Of a DNA stretch of 64,000 bases, positions 34,356 through 41,113 are shown one piece after another. Source of the stretch: Verrucomicrobiota bacterium. GTDB lineage: Bacteria > Verrucomicrobiota > Verrucomicrobiia > Methylacidiphilales > UBA1321. Numbering within the stretch: position 1 is the stretch's first letter; each line of letters opens with the position of its first letter. The stretch lies in NCBI GenBank assembly GCA_013285645.1, contig JABDHJ010000001.1, positions 192,537 to 256,536 of the forward strand. Reading direction: 5' to 3'. Both the position numbers and the translations under genes were made by a program. Below the pieces are notes generated by a model that was not told the origin of the DNA, ran no database searches, and saw nothing but the letters and a program-made list of their open reading frames with translations.

Positions 34356-35285
34356 TTATTTTGAGAGATTTAAAACGTCCGATTCTTTCGGCTTTATGCA
34401 ACTGGCATAGGTACCAAACAAGGCTTTGTTTGATTGATCAAATGTTGATCTAATTTTGGACTTCATGGGCAGTTCGCCCATTCGATCGTCACGGTAAAAC
34501 AAGCCAAGAAAAGAGTTTACCAGCCACCTCAGTTGAATTAATAAAAAATTCGTTAGATATCCGACTTCTTTATCATGCGGGAGAAGTGCGTTCAACTCTC
34601 GAATCATTTCCGCTCTTTGGGGCGTAAGAGATTTGTTGGTTCTTAAGACTTTCTTATACCTTGAGGTATCATGCACTCCCAGAAGGCGCGCGAAATCATC
34701 GCAGATATCATTATTTACCATTTTGCTATAATCCCTGACTACGATGCTTTCTTTTCCAAAAACGCACGCCCAAGGCTCCAATAATTTGTAATAGTTAAGA
34801 TAGCCATTGTCGATATGTACGGGATCGTCTGTTAATTTCTCCCTCCTGCCATTAATGATGGCTGTGCTGTATGACGCGTAATAGAGCTCGTACTGCTCTC
34901 TCATGTAAAAAATGATGTACACATCAAACGCATCCAATGCGTCTCTAAGTTTTTCTATATGATCACGCGATGTCAGCCTTGATGAAAAATGTTCGGACGA
35001 AAGTATGACGTTTCTTTCCTCATTTGATAAATCCTTCTTAAATCGAGATAACATGTCTTGATTGGGTACATGTTCTGAAGGAAATACAAAATCTGGCGGT
35101 TCATGAAAAAAACTCGCTACGATTGGAGAATGGGCATTTCTGTGCTCTGAGTAATAGAGCTTATTCTCAGTAAAATAGGTAAAACCCGCTCTATTGAGTT
35201 GCTCACTATTGTTCGCCAGGAATTGCCGCAAGCTTGAGGTACCGGTTTTCTCAGATCCAATATGCAAATACAAAGTGCGTTCCAC
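34356..35285 (-). CDS. Sulfotransferase-like protein, AT-rich and probably acquired
   Basis: A 309-residue protein whose N-terminus YLHIGSEKTGTSSLRQFLAN matches the 5'-phosphosulfate-binding loop of sulfotransferases. ILSSEHFSSRL at about residue 95 fits the 3'-phosphate-binding strand. It would transfer sulfate from PAPS to a sugar or other acceptor, perhaps a surface polysaccharide. Translation begins at GTG. The gene is visibly richer in A and T than everything around it, in silent positions too (runs such as AATAAAAAATTCG), and no sulfate or glycan genes adjoin it. That suggests horizontal transfer. The acceptor cannot be predicted. Confidence 0.75.
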   Translation of the reverse strand: MERTLYLHIGSEKTGTSSLRQFLANNSEQLNRAGFTYFTENKLYYSEHRNAHSPIVASFFHEPPDFVFPSEHVPNQDMLSRFKKDLSNEERNVILSSEHFSSRLTSRDHIEKLRDALDAFDVYIIFYMREQYELYYASYSTAIINGRREKLTDDPVHIDNGYLNYYKLLEPWACVFGKESIVVRDYSKMVNNDICDDFARLLGVHDTSRYKKVLRTNKSLTPQRAEMIRELNALLPHDKEVGYLTNFLLIQLRWLVNSFLGLFYRDDRMGELPMKSKIRSTFDQSNKALFGTYASCIKPKESDVLNLSK

Positions 35286-35818: not shown

Positions 35819-36022
35819 TTAGTGGCTGCTTCCGGCGTACGACAACTGGCTGCTGATCGTCGTGAAGACACCCTTGACCTGGTTGCCCAAGGCAATCAGG
35901 ACCGAGATGGCGACCACGGAAATGAAGGCGAGAATCAAGGCGTACTCCACCAGAGTTTGGCCCTTCTTGCTCTTCATACGGCGCAGCGCAACTTTGGCGC
36001 TAGTAATAATTTTGTTGATCAT
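35819..36022 (-). CDS. Class III-type (Flp-like) pilin, copy 1
   Basis: A 67-residue prepilin. The track extends it to 36094, but a strong ribosome-binding site (GAGAGGAGGTGAAAAAACA) directly precedes the ATG at 36022, which gives MINKIITSAKVALRRMKSKKG then QTLVEYALILAFISVVAISVLIAL. Cleavage after Gly21 would leave a 46-residue subunit. With its excellent ribosome-binding site it is probably the major pilin. The neighbour upstream is a roadblock/MglA module, suggesting the fibre is under polarity control. Confidence 0.87.
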   Translation of the reverse strand: MINKIITSAKVALRRMKSKKGQTLVEYALILAFISVVAISVLIALGNQVKGVFTTISSQLSYAGSSH

Positions 36023-36090
36023 TGTTTTTTCACCTCCTCTCAATAAAAAAAGTGTATCGAAATCTTTAATTTGCCTGCTTCTCCTGCTGG

Positions 36091-36105
36091 GCAATTTGTC
36101 TACCA
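36091..36105 (-). promoter_or_regulatory. Candidate sigma-54 promoter of the pilin gene
   Basis: On the minus strand TGGTAGACAAATTGC has the exact spacing of a -24/-12 element (GG-N10-GC) and keeps TGG and TTGC of the consensus TGGCACGNNNNTTGC. Transcription would start near 36079, about 57 bases before the pilin ATG. Sigma-54 control of major pilin genes is known in several bacteria. One element of this size may occur by chance. Confidence 0.5.
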
Positions 36106-36338: not shown

Positions 36339-36809
36339 TTAGGTAATTGCTGCCGTATCGTTCATGAAATCGCCATCCAACAAAAGCGGTCCAGCTGCCG
36401 CTTCTTTTTCACGGGCAATATGCAAAAGTTCATTGAGCGAGACGGTTACCTGCTGGGAATAAAACCGGACCAATCCGATATTGGTCTTCTCCCCAAAGAT
36501 GGTGACCAGGAGGCATTCGTGATGAAGCGCGCTCATCAGGATGTGTTGCCCATGTCCCTCGTGATAGAGCGCACTGAATTCAGATTCCCCAAGACGCTTG
36601 GCCAATTCGTGCGTGGCGGCAAAGGAACCGGCGGCGAGAGCCGAAAGAATGCTCAGGTCGAGCGCTCCGGTTTCGCCCTTTTGGGCAAAGAGATTGCCGC
36701 CCTTGTCGACCAAGGCGGACCATTGCGCTTCCGACTTGGCGAGAAAATCGCCCAGGCGCTGTTCGATGGCCATCTGATCTTCGGCCGTGAGCATTCCAAT
36801 TCCAGTCAT
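36339..36809 (-). CDS. Roadblock/LC7-domain protein
   Basis: A 156-residue protein with the roadblock layout: an N-terminal helix (MAIEQRLGDFLAKSEAQWSAL), a strand pair (ALVDKGGNLFAQKG), a middle helix (LSILSALAAGSFAATHELAKRL), strands ending in HECLLVTIFGEKTNIGLVRF, and a C-terminal helix. Roadblock proteins bind MglA-type GTPases as activators or scaffolds (MglB is the known case). The MglA-like gene lies 13 bp upstream on the same strand, so the two should form a pair. Confidence 0.82.
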   Translation of the reverse strand: MTGIGMLTAEDQMAIEQRLGDFLAKSEAQWSALVDKGGNLFAQKGETGALDLSILSALAAGSFAATHELAKRLGESEFSALYHEGHGQHILMSALHHECLLVTIFGEKTNIGLVRFYSQQVTVSLNELLHIAREKEAAAGPLLLDGDFMNDTAAIT

Positions 36810-36822
36810 ACGTAGTTCCTAT

Positions 36823-37512
36823 TCAGGCTGCAGCGCTGCCCGGCGCAACCTGGGATTCTTCCGCAGGCGGGGGTACGGTGACAGCAGCATTGGGTTGGGC
36901 CAAGCCCGTGACATTGGCATTGGGGGTCTTCGAGTATTTGGCCAGGAGAAGCCGCGCGGCCGCGTTCAACGTTTCCAGTACGCCGGAACCCGTCGAAGCC
37001 ACGGCTTCGAAAGCGAGCGTGCGGTTGGCCCGGTTGTTGAAGGTAAATTCGAGATAGTTGACCGGGGCGGCATTGGGAATGTCCCGCTTATTGTACTGCA
37101 ACACGTAGGGAATCTGCACCAGGCTCAAGTGATTCTCGATCAGGTTTTCCTGGAGATTGGCGAATGACTCCACGTTGTCTGCCATCTTTTCCCAATGCGA
37201 ATCGACGCAAAAGATGATGCCGTCCACTCCCTTGAGCACCAACTGCCGCGTCGTGTTATAAATGGCCTGTCCGGGAACCGTGTAGAGTTGAAACCTCGTC
37301 GTGAAGCCCGGCAGCGTTTTCGTATTCAGCGACAAAAAGTCGAAGAAAAGCGTGCGGTCGGCGTCGGTGGCCAACGAAACCAGCTCGCCTTTTTGCGCGT
37401 GGGTGATCTGTTTATGCAGCGTAACCAGATTGGTCGTCTTGCCGCAAAGAGCGGCGCCGTAATAGACGATCTTCAGCTGAATTTCGCGGCTGGAGTAATT
37501 AATGAAAGCCAT
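36823..37512 (-). CDS. MglA-like small GTPase
   Basis: A 229-residue GTPase. The P-loop is IVYYGAALCGKTTNLVTLHK (about residues 15-34), the switch region carries FQLYTVPGQAIYNTTRQLVL, and the base-specificity motif is LQYNKRDIP. These features match MglA, the polarity switch that controls gliding and type IV pili in Myxococcus and related systems. A Pro/Ala-rich tail of about 35 residues is added at the C-terminus. The flanking genes encode one free roadblock protein and one large protein ending in a roadblock-like domain, which are both candidate partners. Confidence 0.92.
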   Translation of the reverse strand: MAFINYSSREIQLKIVYYGAALCGKTTNLVTLHKQITHAQKGELVSLATDADRTLFFDFLSLNTKTLPGFTTRFQLYTVPGQAIYNTTRQLVLKGVDGIIFCVDSHWEKMADNVESFANLQENLIENHLSLVQIPYVLQYNKRDIPNAAPVNYLEFTFNNRANRTLAFEAVASTGSGVLETLNAAARLLLAKYSKTPNANVTGLAQPNAAVTVPPPAEESQVAPGSAAA

Positions 37513-37530: not shown

Positions 37531-40014
37531 CTATTCTTTCCGCATGCTCAAGGCAGCCAGGACAAAGCGGGCGACCTTAAGATGCCGTTCAGGCATTTGA
37601 GGCAACCTGCAAAGGATAATGAGGTAAAGGTCATTGTCGCGGAAAATGTGATAGCTCGTTCCCGCAGTCGGAATGATCAGGTCGTTGGTTTCCTTGCCCG
37701 CGATTTCCGAGAACGACTTGTTCAGCGACTCGAACATCCGCGGCACAAAGGCAACCAGCGCTGCTTTGTCCAGGCCTTTGGGAGTATGCCCCACCAGGGA
37801 CAGTCCGCTGCCTTGGCTCAAGACGCAACCGGTGACATCCGGCCAGCAGCATATACGATCCGTGACTTCCTTGAGGGAAGGCCGTTGATCCGCCGGAAAG
37901 CCGAGAAGCTCGTTGATCGTGAGCGGTATCCGGTTGGCAGGCGGAGTTTCCCCAGTGAGGTTCGTATAAGCGTCTTTTGTGATTCCGGGCACATCCAATA
38001 GGTCTTCGATCCTTTGAAACGACCCAATCGCCTTCCGATGCTTAATGATCGATTCAGCCAGTTCCCGGTTGCAGCCGGGTATCTGGAGCAACTCCTCGAC
38101 TGTGCAGGTATTGAGATTGAACGCTCCGGATTCTTCAGGAGTCGGCTCCTTTTCGGCGGTAGTAGGCAAGGGCTTCGTTAGCACCGCCTCAGGATTAACA
38201 ATCGATGTGGGTGCCTGCACAGCCGGAGTTGGCGGCGGCGTATAGGCAACCGGCGCCGGAGCAGCAACCGGAGTGGGCACTGCCACGGGAATGGAACGCA
38301 CAGGTGCGGTAGCCACAGGCGCGGGTGCGATAGGCAGCGGCGCGGGGGTGAATACCGGCGCAGGCGGCTGGATCAGCGGCGGCGGTGTGAAGGCCACAGG
38401 CGCGGGCGTCTCGATGGGAGCAGGCTCCTCCACCGGTTCCGGCGGCGTATAGGCAACGGGTTCGGGCTCAGGTTCAGGTTCCGGAGCGGCGACGGGAATG
38501 GGCAGGGTCTCCTCCTGTACTGGGGGCGTATAGGCCTCGGGCTCGGGATTGGCGATGGGAGCCGTCTCAGCCGTGGCGAGCAGATCGGTGGAGGCGCTTT
38601 CCGGTTCTTCGCTTTCACCCATTTGCGCCATGGCCAATGCAGCCAAGCGCTGGAGATCGTCGGCAGCCGCATCAGGCACGCCCGGAGCGGGTTGCTCGAC
38701 GGGAGACGTTGCCGCAAGCTCTTCAGGAACTGGAGCCTCAACCGGGGCTGGAGGGGCCTCAGCCACCATGGGAGCGGGCGTAGGTCTAGGAGCAGGTTGT
38801 GGAGGAGCCTCAGGCTGCACCGGAGGCATCTGCGGTTTCGGCAAAGACTGGGTCAGGCGAGGCACCGGCGGAATGGGAGCGGGCGGCATTGAGACCATCG
38901 AGCGCGGGGTCGAAGCCATCGGAATCGGAGCCGTCGGCTGGGGCAACATCGGTGCCTGCATCTGAGACGTGACCGCCGCCTGGGGCCGGGCCGGAATCGC
39001 GGCAGTCGCCCGCGTCGGAGCCGGAAGTGTCCCTGAAGGAGAAATCGTGCGTGCGCTGACACTCGGAGACGCCGGGGCGACCGATCCCGGCAAACGTGAG
39101 GGTGGCTTGGGAGGAGGCGGAAGTTGACCGCTGGCCGAGACCGAGGATACGATTCCCGGAGCAGTCGGCCGCTGTGGTGGCGCAATCGTCTTCGGCGCGG
39201 CCGTGGGAACAAATGCCTCGCTCTGCGGAACCTGGCTTTCCTCGATGATATTATTCTGAGTCGTTTGACGACGCGCGGCTTCCGCTTGTTCGCGCAAAAT
39301 CTCCTCCGTGAAGGGATCCGCCATGTTGATCACGGAAGCATCGACCCCTTTTTGATCGGGACGCAAGGCAAGCAGATCAGGCGGGATGCGCATGACCACA
39401 TCCATCAGCGGTAAATTGACGACCGTCGGCAGATAGTTGGTAATGGAAGCCGTGGGCTGGAGGTAGCCGGGCGGAAAATGAGGAACCAGGTCCGCCAGCG
39501 TCATCTCCACCTTGCCGGAAGGGAGTTGACTTAAAATCATGTTCATCGGCAGGCCGATTTCCGTGGCCGCAGTACCGGCGGCCTCAAATTGGGCAATGTC
39601 AGCCGCCAAGACTTCCGGGGGAAGGCAGCGCAGAATCATTCCCACCGGCAGGTTGATCCGTCCCGCCGGGGCAGCTGCCGCAGGAATAGGAAGAGATTTA
39701 GTGCTGCTAGTCGGTTTGCCCAAGCCGCCGGGCAGAACAATGCGCTGGGTTGAGCGCGTCGATTGCACGACCCCGGGGCGGGTCGGTTTGAGGCCCGAAG
39801 CGGTGCGCGGCATGACCATCGGCTGTGTAGTCGCAGCACCGGAAGTCATCCCCGATGTGGGAATCAAACCGGAAGGCTGGGGAGGCTTGACGGTGGGGAT
39901 GTTCGCCACGCCCGGAGGGGTTTGAATCTTCGGCGGAGTCGGCGGCGCTTTTGCAACAGGGGCAGTAGCTTCCGTGGGGTTTTTATCTTTTTTACCGAAG
40001 AAAGAGAATGCCAT
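37531..40014 (-). CDS. Large Pro/Ala-rich protein with repeats, HhH domain and C-terminal roadblock-like domain
   Basis: An 827-residue cytoplasmic protein with no signal peptide. Residues 1-115 are low complexity. Residues 120-216 hold three or four repeats of a short motif (NLPVGMILRCLPPEVL, GLPMNMILSQLPSGKV, ADLVPHFPPGYL, NLPLMDVVMRIPPDLL). Residues 250-625 are a disordered Pro/Ala-rich linker. Residues 630-690 form a ComEA-like helix-hairpin-helix region (FNLNTCTVEELLQIPGCNRE, SFQRIEDLLDVPGIT). The last 125 residues resemble a roadblock fold (VTGCVLSQGSGLSLVGHTPK, RDNDLYLIILC). It stands 18 bp upstream of mglA on the same strand. The build suggests a long scaffold tying the GTPase to something else; the HhH part may bind DNA or protein. 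Confidence 0.8.
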   Translation of the reverse strand: MAFSFFGKKDKNPTEATAPVAKAPPTPPKIQTPPGVANIPTVKPPQPSGLIPTSGMTSGAATTQPMVMPRTASGLKPTRPGVVQSTRSTQRIVLPGGLGKPTSSTKSLPIPAAAAPAGRINLPVGMILRCLPPEVLAADIAQFEAAGTAATEIGLPMNMILSQLPSGKVEMTLADLVPHFPPGYLQPTASITNYLPTVVNLPLMDVVMRIPPDLLALRPDQKGVDASVINMADPFTEEILREQAEAARRQTTQNNIIEESQVPQSEAFVPTAAPKTIAPPQRPTAPGIVSSVSASGQLPPPPKPPSRLPGSVAPASPSVSARTISPSGTLPAPTRATAAIPARPQAAVTSQMQAPMLPQPTAPIPMASTPRSMVSMPPAPIPPVPRLTQSLPKPQMPPVQPEAPPQPAPRPTPAPMVAEAPPAPVEAPVPEELAATSPVEQPAPGVPDAAADDLQRLAALAMAQMGESEEPESASTDLLATAETAPIANPEPEAYTPPVQEETLPIPVAAPEPEPEPEPVAYTPPEPVEEPAPIETPAPVAFTPPPLIQPPAPVFTPAPLPIAPAPVATAPVRSIPVAVPTPVAAPAPVAYTPPPTPAVQAPTSIVNPEAVLTKPLPTTAEKEPTPEESGAFNLNTCTVEELLQIPGCNRELAESIIKHRKAIGSFQRIEDLLDVPGITKDAYTNLTGETPPANRIPLTINELLGFPADQRPSLKEVTDRICCWPDVTGCVLSQGSGLSLVGHTPKGLDKAALVAFVPRMFESLNKSFSEIAGKETNDLIIPTAGTSYHIFRDNDLYLIILCRLPQMPERHLKVARFVLAALSMRKE

Positions 40015-40099: not shown

Positions 40100-41113
40100 A
40101 TGAGTTATCCGAATAGCACTCCGTTTTCTGAATCAGACCTACCGGTTTCGTCCGGTTTTAATACCCAATCCCAGATGGGATTGGCCGAAGTCCTGCAGAT
40201 GTGCTGCCTGAGCCACCGCAGCGGCCAGATCACCTTCCGGTCCGGCGAATCCCACGGATTTGTCTTCATCCAGCAGGGCAACGTCCTCCACGCCATGTGC
40301 GGTCCCATCGAGGGAGCGGAAGCCATCTTCACCATGCTCACCTGGCCCGGAGGCGGATTCTCGCTAAATGAAGATATTTTACCTCATAAGAAAACGGTGA
40401 CATTGACCTGGGAGCAACTACTCTTTGAAGGTGCCCGCCGCGCGGATGAAGGTATCAGTACGCCTTCCGGCGCTCCGGTTGTCACCGCCGAACCAGTTGT
40501 TAGTACGCGTGCCCACGAGAGCCAGCCGAAACTAATCATAACCCGTCCCGACCTCCCTCAGGCCGCTTACGAGTTGGTCCAGGAATACACCCATTTAGGA
40601 CGGGCTGCGGGCAACGAGATCTCCCTCCCCTACCCCTCCATTTCCGGTCGCCATTGCATCTTCATCCTCAGCGGTCCGGATGTTGTCGTGCGCGATCTCA
40701 ACTCTTCCAACGGCACCCTGGTCAACGACGAGACCATCAGCGAACAGGTCCTGCGACCCGGCGATATCATCCGAGTCGGAGTCGTCGAGATCAAATTTGA
40801 AGCTGGCATGAAGCGCCCCAAATTACGCACCAACGCTCCGGCTCAAAGAACTGCGGAGTCTCTCAAGGAAGTGCCGTTCAATCCGCTGATCTCCCACTCG
40901 ACAGTCAAGCTACCCGGCGCAAGAAGCGCGGACGGTGCCGCTCCCAAAGCCAAGAACGACAGCGCTTACGTCAAAGGCGTGTCCGCCATCAACTACAGCG
41001 ATCTCGCCAAGCCCGAAGTTAACGAGAAAAAAGCCCCTTGGATGATCATCTTCATCGTCGTAGTGTTAGTCCTCGGTGGAGCCGCCTGTTACTTCTTCCT
41101 CCTCCGGCATTAG
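40100..41113 (+). CDS. DUF4388-FHA membrane-anchored protein
   Basis: I take the ATG at 40100 (337 residues, MSYPNSTPF); the track's start at 39974 would overlap the divergent gene. Residues 25-95 are a DUF4388 domain (MGLAEVLQMCCLSHRSGQIT, GFVFIQQGNVLHAMCG), a module known from Myxococcus-type signalling proteins. Residues 155-235 are an FHA domain with the phosphothreonine-binding pattern LGRAAGNEI, SISGRHC and NSSNGTLVND. Residues 311-333 form one C-terminal membrane helix. It should read a phosphorylated protein at the membrane. It is divergent from the HhH/roadblock gene with an 85-bp shared promoter gap. Confidence 0.87.
   Translation: MSYPNSTPFSESDLPVSSGFNTQSQMGLAEVLQMCCLSHRSGQITFRSGESHGFVFIQQGNVLHAMCGPIEGAEAIFTMLTWPGGGFSLNEDILPHKKTVTLTWEQLLFEGARRADEGISTPSGAPVVTAEPVVSTRAHESQPKLIITRPDLPQAAYELVQEYTHLGRAAGNEISLPYPSISGRHCIFILSGPDVVVRDLNSSNGTLVNDETISEQVLRPGDIIRVGVVEIKFEAGMKRPKLRTNAPAQRTAESLKEVPFNPLISHSTVKLPGARSADGAAPKAKNDSAYVKGVSAINYSDLAKPEVNEKKAPWMIIFIVVVLVLGGAACYFFLLRH

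Follow-up and report, generated by a model that had tools for sequence, protein, structure and literature searches.

Which role is played by a long, proline-rich protein encoded directly upstream of mglA and mglB in a member of the Verrucomicrobiota is the question raised by this locus. Herein, the window means the whole stretch of 64,000 nucleotides that was analyzed, and the gene is referred to as the scaffold gene. The ORF was confirmed with the position and length given by the first-pass annotation, on the minus strand and with an ATG start (Table 1). Only 18 bp separate it from the co-directional mglA downstream, and mglB comes next, so an MglA-type GTPase and MglB are encoded together at the locus. 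On the other side lies a divergent gene for a DUF4388 (PATAN)-FHA protein, whose reading frame opens at 39974, with the ATG at 40100 as the likelier start. In the window's taxonomic order, the conserved arrangement runs from the nrnA-truB-ribF side through the FHA gene and the scaffold gene to mglA and mglB. Beyond mglB, at least one Flp-type pilin-like gene was located directly on the 3' side in the window and in six further loci (L031-L033 and L035-L037), and none was found at this place in families other than that of the window. The window also has a sulfotransferase-like ORF (34356-35285) flanked by the L31 gene and the Flp pilin-like gene; in the compared relatives, it was not seen at that position.

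Table 1. Features of the scaffold gene, its product, and its neighbors in the window (residue numbers refer to the scaffold protein)
Feature	Position	Strand	Remark
Scaffold gene ("SCAF")	37531..40014	-	ATG start, 827 aa; real ORF with orthologues
N-terminal tip MAFSFFGKKDKN	39979..40014	-	Short, aromatic/hydrophobic plus basic; candidate membrane anchor
ATTQPMVMPR motif	39805..39834	-	Disordered-tail motif; conserved within the window's family
RSTQRIVLPG motif, (S/V/I)TQR[IL]	39727..39756	-	Candidate phospho-threonine ligand of the FHA partner
LP-repeat domain and conserved RPDQK...DPF tail, residues 120-240	39295..39657	-	No match in Pfam, PDB sequences, or PDB folds
Repeat unit 1, residues 122-136	39607..39651	-	Best-four-unit search
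Repeat unit 2, residues 155-169	39508..39552	-	Best-four-unit search
Repeat unit 3, residues 171-185	39460..39504	-	Best-four-unit search
Repeat unit 4, residues 201-215	39370..39414	-	Best-four-unit search
Pro/Ala-rich linker, residues 241-625	38140..39294	-	Sequence poorly conserved
ComEA-like double helix-hairpin-helix (HhH), residues 630-690	37945..38127	-	Hairpin glycines degraded in the window's order
C-terminal roadblock (Robl_LC7) domain, residues 696-825	37540..37929	-	Clade distinct from MglB
mglA	36823..37512	-	Ras-like GTPase with TVPGQ G3 motif; M. xanthus MglA match 5.8e-63
mglB	36339..36809	-	Stand-alone roadblock protein; M. xanthus MglB 7.4e-16; Robl_LC7 3.5e-8
DUF4388 (PATAN)-FHA protein	40100..41113	+	C-terminal TM-like segment; divergent from the scaffold gene
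Flp-type pilin-like gene	35819..36094	-	Downstream of mglB; neighbor in the window's genus only; candidate module member

Scaffold matches were obtained in 21 of 60 relatives, the window's own genome included; the 11 further members listed for its family all have one, in G011 as a contig-end fragment only. The architecture common across the Verrucomicrobiota comprises a tail, one or two LP domains, a variable linker, an optional HhH region, and the roadblock domain. The scaffold gene is adjoined by mglA in 16 of the 20 loci of the window's order and in 27 of 31 loci elsewhere in the class and phylum, mostly together with mglB. Among 289 genomes of the phylum, 30 matched an improved LP-domain profile and 27 encoded MglA (E below 1e-40): 26 genomes had both, 4 the domain only, 1 (G288) MglA only, and 258 neither (Fisher 1e-31, for genomes that are not phylogenetically independent). 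When collapsed to families, the LP-domain and MglA sets coincided (16/16); neither profile had been built by selecting for MglA. The proposed link to a GTPase complex is thus strongly supported by synteny, with mglA and mglB beside the gene in most relatives, and by co-occurrence in 26 of the 27 MglA genomes. That the scaffold is a component of the verrucomicrobial MglA/MglB module is well supported.

Several loci depart from this arrangement. Four genomes of one family (f26), in which a profile scan detected no MglA, encode stand-alone LP-domain proteins of ~150-160 aa (L121:4340-5326, L122:5191-5679, L123:5311-5760, and L124:5149-5616; the L121 ORF of 328 aa probably has an overlong start), indicating that the LP domain is not strictly tied to MglA. 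L046 and L047, from one genus, possess the scaffold and show no mglA or FHA match beside it, and in L043, from a further genome of the genus, mglA is present but diverged (38% identity). At L041 (7682-9088, genome G015), a scaffold relative of 468 aa consists of HhH and roadblock regions with no detectable LP domain, and there was no mglA match in the 17 kb examined. At L044:7520-9559, a frameshift or an assembly error leaves the scaffold as two ORFs, an N-terminal one of 539 aa and a C-terminal one of 117 aa. L054 and L057, titled Bacteroidetes and Betaproteobacteria, carry the verrucomicrobial scaffold locus and are probably mislabelled MAGs.

The C-terminus has the fold of a GTPase regulator. 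Its AlphaFold2 (AF2) model matched roadblock folds in Foldseek at a probability of 1.0, with TM scores by target length of 0.68-0.80 against M. xanthus MglB and 0.68-0.83 when archaeal roadblocks were included. Robl_LC7 (PF03259) matched 13 of 20 orthologues (best 8.4e-7), and the window's copy alone reached only 0.1 and stayed below the gathering score; a profile search with the scaffold C-terminus found a Robl_LC7 structure at 1.5e-6. The C-terminus is therefore a true roadblock domain, as the first-pass annotation had suspected, and no match to another fold emerged. When 110 roadblock sequences from the loci were placed in one tree, the scaffold domains and the MglBs were split (98%, support 0.93), and the scaffold roadblock did not group with MglB, of which the locus has its own separate copy. 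This near-complete separation indicates an old second roadblock rather than a recent copy of the neighboring mglB. When the scaffold roadblock profile was aligned by hhalign with the window's single MglB sequence, no match was obtained (probability 0.9), so the relatedness rests on fold, Pfam, and tree. The domain thus shares the fold and the profile match with the MglB/Robl_LC7 family, but differs in its fusion to a large scaffold and in forming a clade apart from the co-encoded MglB.

The motif noted earlier over residues ~120-216 was found where reported, its four phrases corresponding to four repeat units. In 63 LP domains from across the phylum (Neff 41), the consensus hPhxxhLxxLPxxhL recurred in four 15-column units starting from columns 1, 34, 50, and 79. 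Exactly these units came out when the four best-scoring 15-column segments were searched for exhaustively, with a summed score of 53.5; in 200 column shuffles, the maximum averaged 10.1 (sd 3.1) and never exceeded 19.1. Shuffling also removes local amphipathic periodicity and is thus a lenient null, but the observed score lies above it by a very wide margin. The four-fold repeat exceeds chance expectation by far. In an alignment of 19 orthologous domains, prolines P4, P13, P37, P62, and P83 were invariant and most motif prolines were kept. The repeats also proved conserved in other genomes by profile search, their spacing and inter-unit positions being kept through the phylum, and duplication affects the whole four-unit domain, with one or two copies per protein. 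AlphaFold2 with 11 family sequences gave a pLDDT of about 83-94 over residues 119-208 and low confidence outside, and the model alternates short strands and helices; the LP repeats are thus predicted to be one compact domain of ~105 aa with four strand-helix units. No credible match was found in Pfam or PDB sequences, and Foldseek retrieved no PDB fold relative (best E 9.9) and no viral fold relative.

The tail preceding this domain starts with a tip that has similar counterparts in many scaffold relatives. Further on, all orthologues from the window's order that have the LP domain and a complete N-terminus carry (S/V/I)TQR[IL], while the surroundings of this motif were hardly alignable between families; G015, noted above for its missing LP domain, does not have the TQR motif either. 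Of the 18 loci that contain an FHA gene, 17 have the motif upstream of the LP domain, versus 3 of the 42 loci without such a gene; this association comes largely from one order and is confounded by shared ancestry. L099, from another order, has both TQR and FHA and supports the association; L106 has FHA without TQR and speaks against it. By eye, the window's FHA domain retains the canonical GR, SxxH, and NG residues, and the genome to which the window belongs encodes six Ser/Thr kinases. Recognition of pTXXI is within the abilities of FHA domains (PMC4037201). With a conserved threonine, an accepted residue at +3, and a disordered setting, TQR[I/L] is, judging from sequence, a candidate phospho-threonine docking site for the FHA partner.

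A PATAN protein is the usual partner of the scaffold. DUF4388 (PATAN) was detected in 21 of 26 genomes with both scaffold and MglA versus 8 of 263 others. The domain fused to it varies: FHA in the window's order and L099, REC in L077, L079, and L103 (once with MshEN), and PAS in L080, L083, and L131. At L077:3946-5766, adjoining the scaffold gene, PATAN is combined with MshEN (of the PilB/MshE N-terminal type) and receiver domains, a fusion that hints at a pilus-motor link. The window's own incomplete genome (G000) has ten DUF4388 matches, compared with one or two in most others. In cyanobacteria, PATAN regulators bind PilB1, and PilB/PilC are the targets of PATAN proteins of the PixG type (PMC12288463); a 2014 survey had already pointed out PATAN genes in the vicinity of MglA/MglB (PMC4316618). 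The window's partner shares its domain with Synechocystis PixG, but in the window's protein, PATAN is joined to FHA and to a TM-like segment, and its action on pili is putative. PilT-family ATPases are encoded in 287 of the 289 phylum genomes; co-occurrence is therefore uninformative on a pilus link and was dropped as an argument, leaving the type IV pilus link indirect. A pilus connection is plausible, solely through the PATAN partner and the neighboring Flp pilin genes. Hence, of the tether suggested by the first-pass annotation between a GTPase complex and another structure, the GTPase side held in synteny and co-occurrence, whereas the pilus as the other end is only plausible.

Other readings of the protein were weighed against its domains. 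The earlier proposal, which takes the repeats for short linear docking motifs strung along a flexible chain, fits their shortness and flanking prolines in a Pro-rich protein, but since AF2 packs them into one confident strand-helix domain whose spacing is conserved phylum-wide and which duplicates as a whole, they are better taken as structural units; the proposal is very improbable and was rejected on the model and the conservation. The linker, noted earlier as nearly 400 residues long, measured 385 aa (26% Pro and 17% Ala), from which composition disorder is inferred. Behind it, the ComEA-type HhH region was recovered: residues 631-688 match Pfam HHH_3 (PF12836) at 1.1e-15, giving the double HhH motif of ComEA, and the whole-protein comEA model gave a weak similarity (1.2e-9, 38 bits) that did not reach its cut-off of 152. 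Such an HhH could bind DNA, and the protein would then tether the GTPase module either to the nucleoid, in segregation, or to DNA entering the cell, in competence. This is in keeping with the HHH_3 match, the weak comEA similarity, and the intact G-h-G hairpins of several distant members (L080, L130, and L140). However, the hairpin glycines are changed in the window's order (PGCNR and PGITK), and many scaffold members have no HhH, including four loci of that same order. Differing from ComEA in architecture, degenerate in its hairpins there, and dispensable in the family, the region makes a DNA tether an improbable explanation, and as a general function it was discarded.

A stronger rival, though still an unlikely one, is that the roadblock domain heterodimerizes or acts with MglB as a co-GAP or GEF, resembling RomY or Ragulator, with the rest serving as a localization tail. 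Roadblock proteins are often found in heteromeric GEF/GAP complexes (PMC9481161), and the module has two separate roadblock domains per MglA; however, the conserved LP domain, the HhH, and the tail motifs imply more than a passive tail. That the gene is an ordinary neighbor of mglA and mglB with an unrelated function is hardly credible. In three families (f41, f45, and, for one genome, f26), it lies away from mglA, but even where unlinked, the scaffold stays with MglA genomes (26/27), and the protein carries a GTPase-regulator fold.

Our preferred reading, held with moderate confidence, is a conserved single-chain scaffold of MglA/MglB, comparable to RomR plus MglC, with proposed anchoring, docking, and PATAN output. 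Its observed basis is the domain identities, the linkage to mglA/mglB, and the co-occurrence, and it is the most economical because the protein joins a presumably disordered scaffold to a roadblock domain of its own. The roadblock would dimerize and dock on the MglB dimer or MglA, in the way that MglC connects RomR with MglB. Through the amphipathic tip MAFSFFGKKDKN and the long, presumably disordered linker, the complex might be kept at a membrane or pole site, and the LP-repeat domain could bind a localization landmark or a downstream effector. In the window's order, phosphorylated TQR(I/L) in the N-terminal tail would recruit the divergently encoded FHA-PATAN protein, and the PATAN domain would relay the signal, most likely to the type IV pilus motor; in other lineages, a PATAN partner with a REC or PAS input domain would take the place of FHA. 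The protein is probably the missing scaffold of a cell-polarity or pilus switch in the Verrucomicrobiota. A more far-reaching version, an independently wired Ras-like GTPase polarity system built on the single-chain roadblock scaffold, with a new, pole-recognizing repeat fold, interchangeable FHA/REC/PAS-PATAN adaptors, and phospho-TQR(I/L) docking in the FHA lineages, is offered tentatively and is the less likely of the two.

In M. xanthus, assembly at the pole starts from RomR, made up of a receiver domain, a disordered region, and a Glu-rich helix, and MglC, a roadblock protein, links RomR with MglB (PMC10329633). The verrucomicrobial protein likewise places a long scaffold, judged disordered from its composition, and a second, MglB-distinct roadblock on the MglA/MglB module, but does so in one chain instead of two, with an LP-repeat domain and often an HhH, and homology extends to the roadblock fold only. 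Pfam gave no Response_reg match in the window's scaffold, so no counterpart of the N-terminal receiver of RomR was found there. Actinobacterial conservons (CvnA-D) also encode a roadblock protein and a Ras-like GTPase with partner signaling proteins; beside the window's locus, no conservon histidine kinase or CvnC was seen, and a scaffold with a fused roadblock is present instead. The accessible text of the 2014 survey of prokaryotic small GTPases describes variable neighborhoods for Group 1 and 5 MglA and no such scaffold, and it lists Verrucomicrobia under Group 5, whereas the TVPGQ motif of the window's MglA is the one given there for the other group (PMC4316618). No published description of the scaffold protein was found in the open-access literature. 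The component family and its domain are new, and the MglA/MglB class of systems is already known.

Among the Ras-like polarity switches of bacteria, MglA/MglB is the best known, and its scaffold in M. xanthus, RomR, is a separate protein. The LP repeat adds a domain without a solved relative. Roadblock proteins recur as parts of larger GTPase regulators, and the family carries this theme further. A scaffold that spans the phylum and has a second roadblock fused to it allows the wiring of such switches to be compared in a testable manner.
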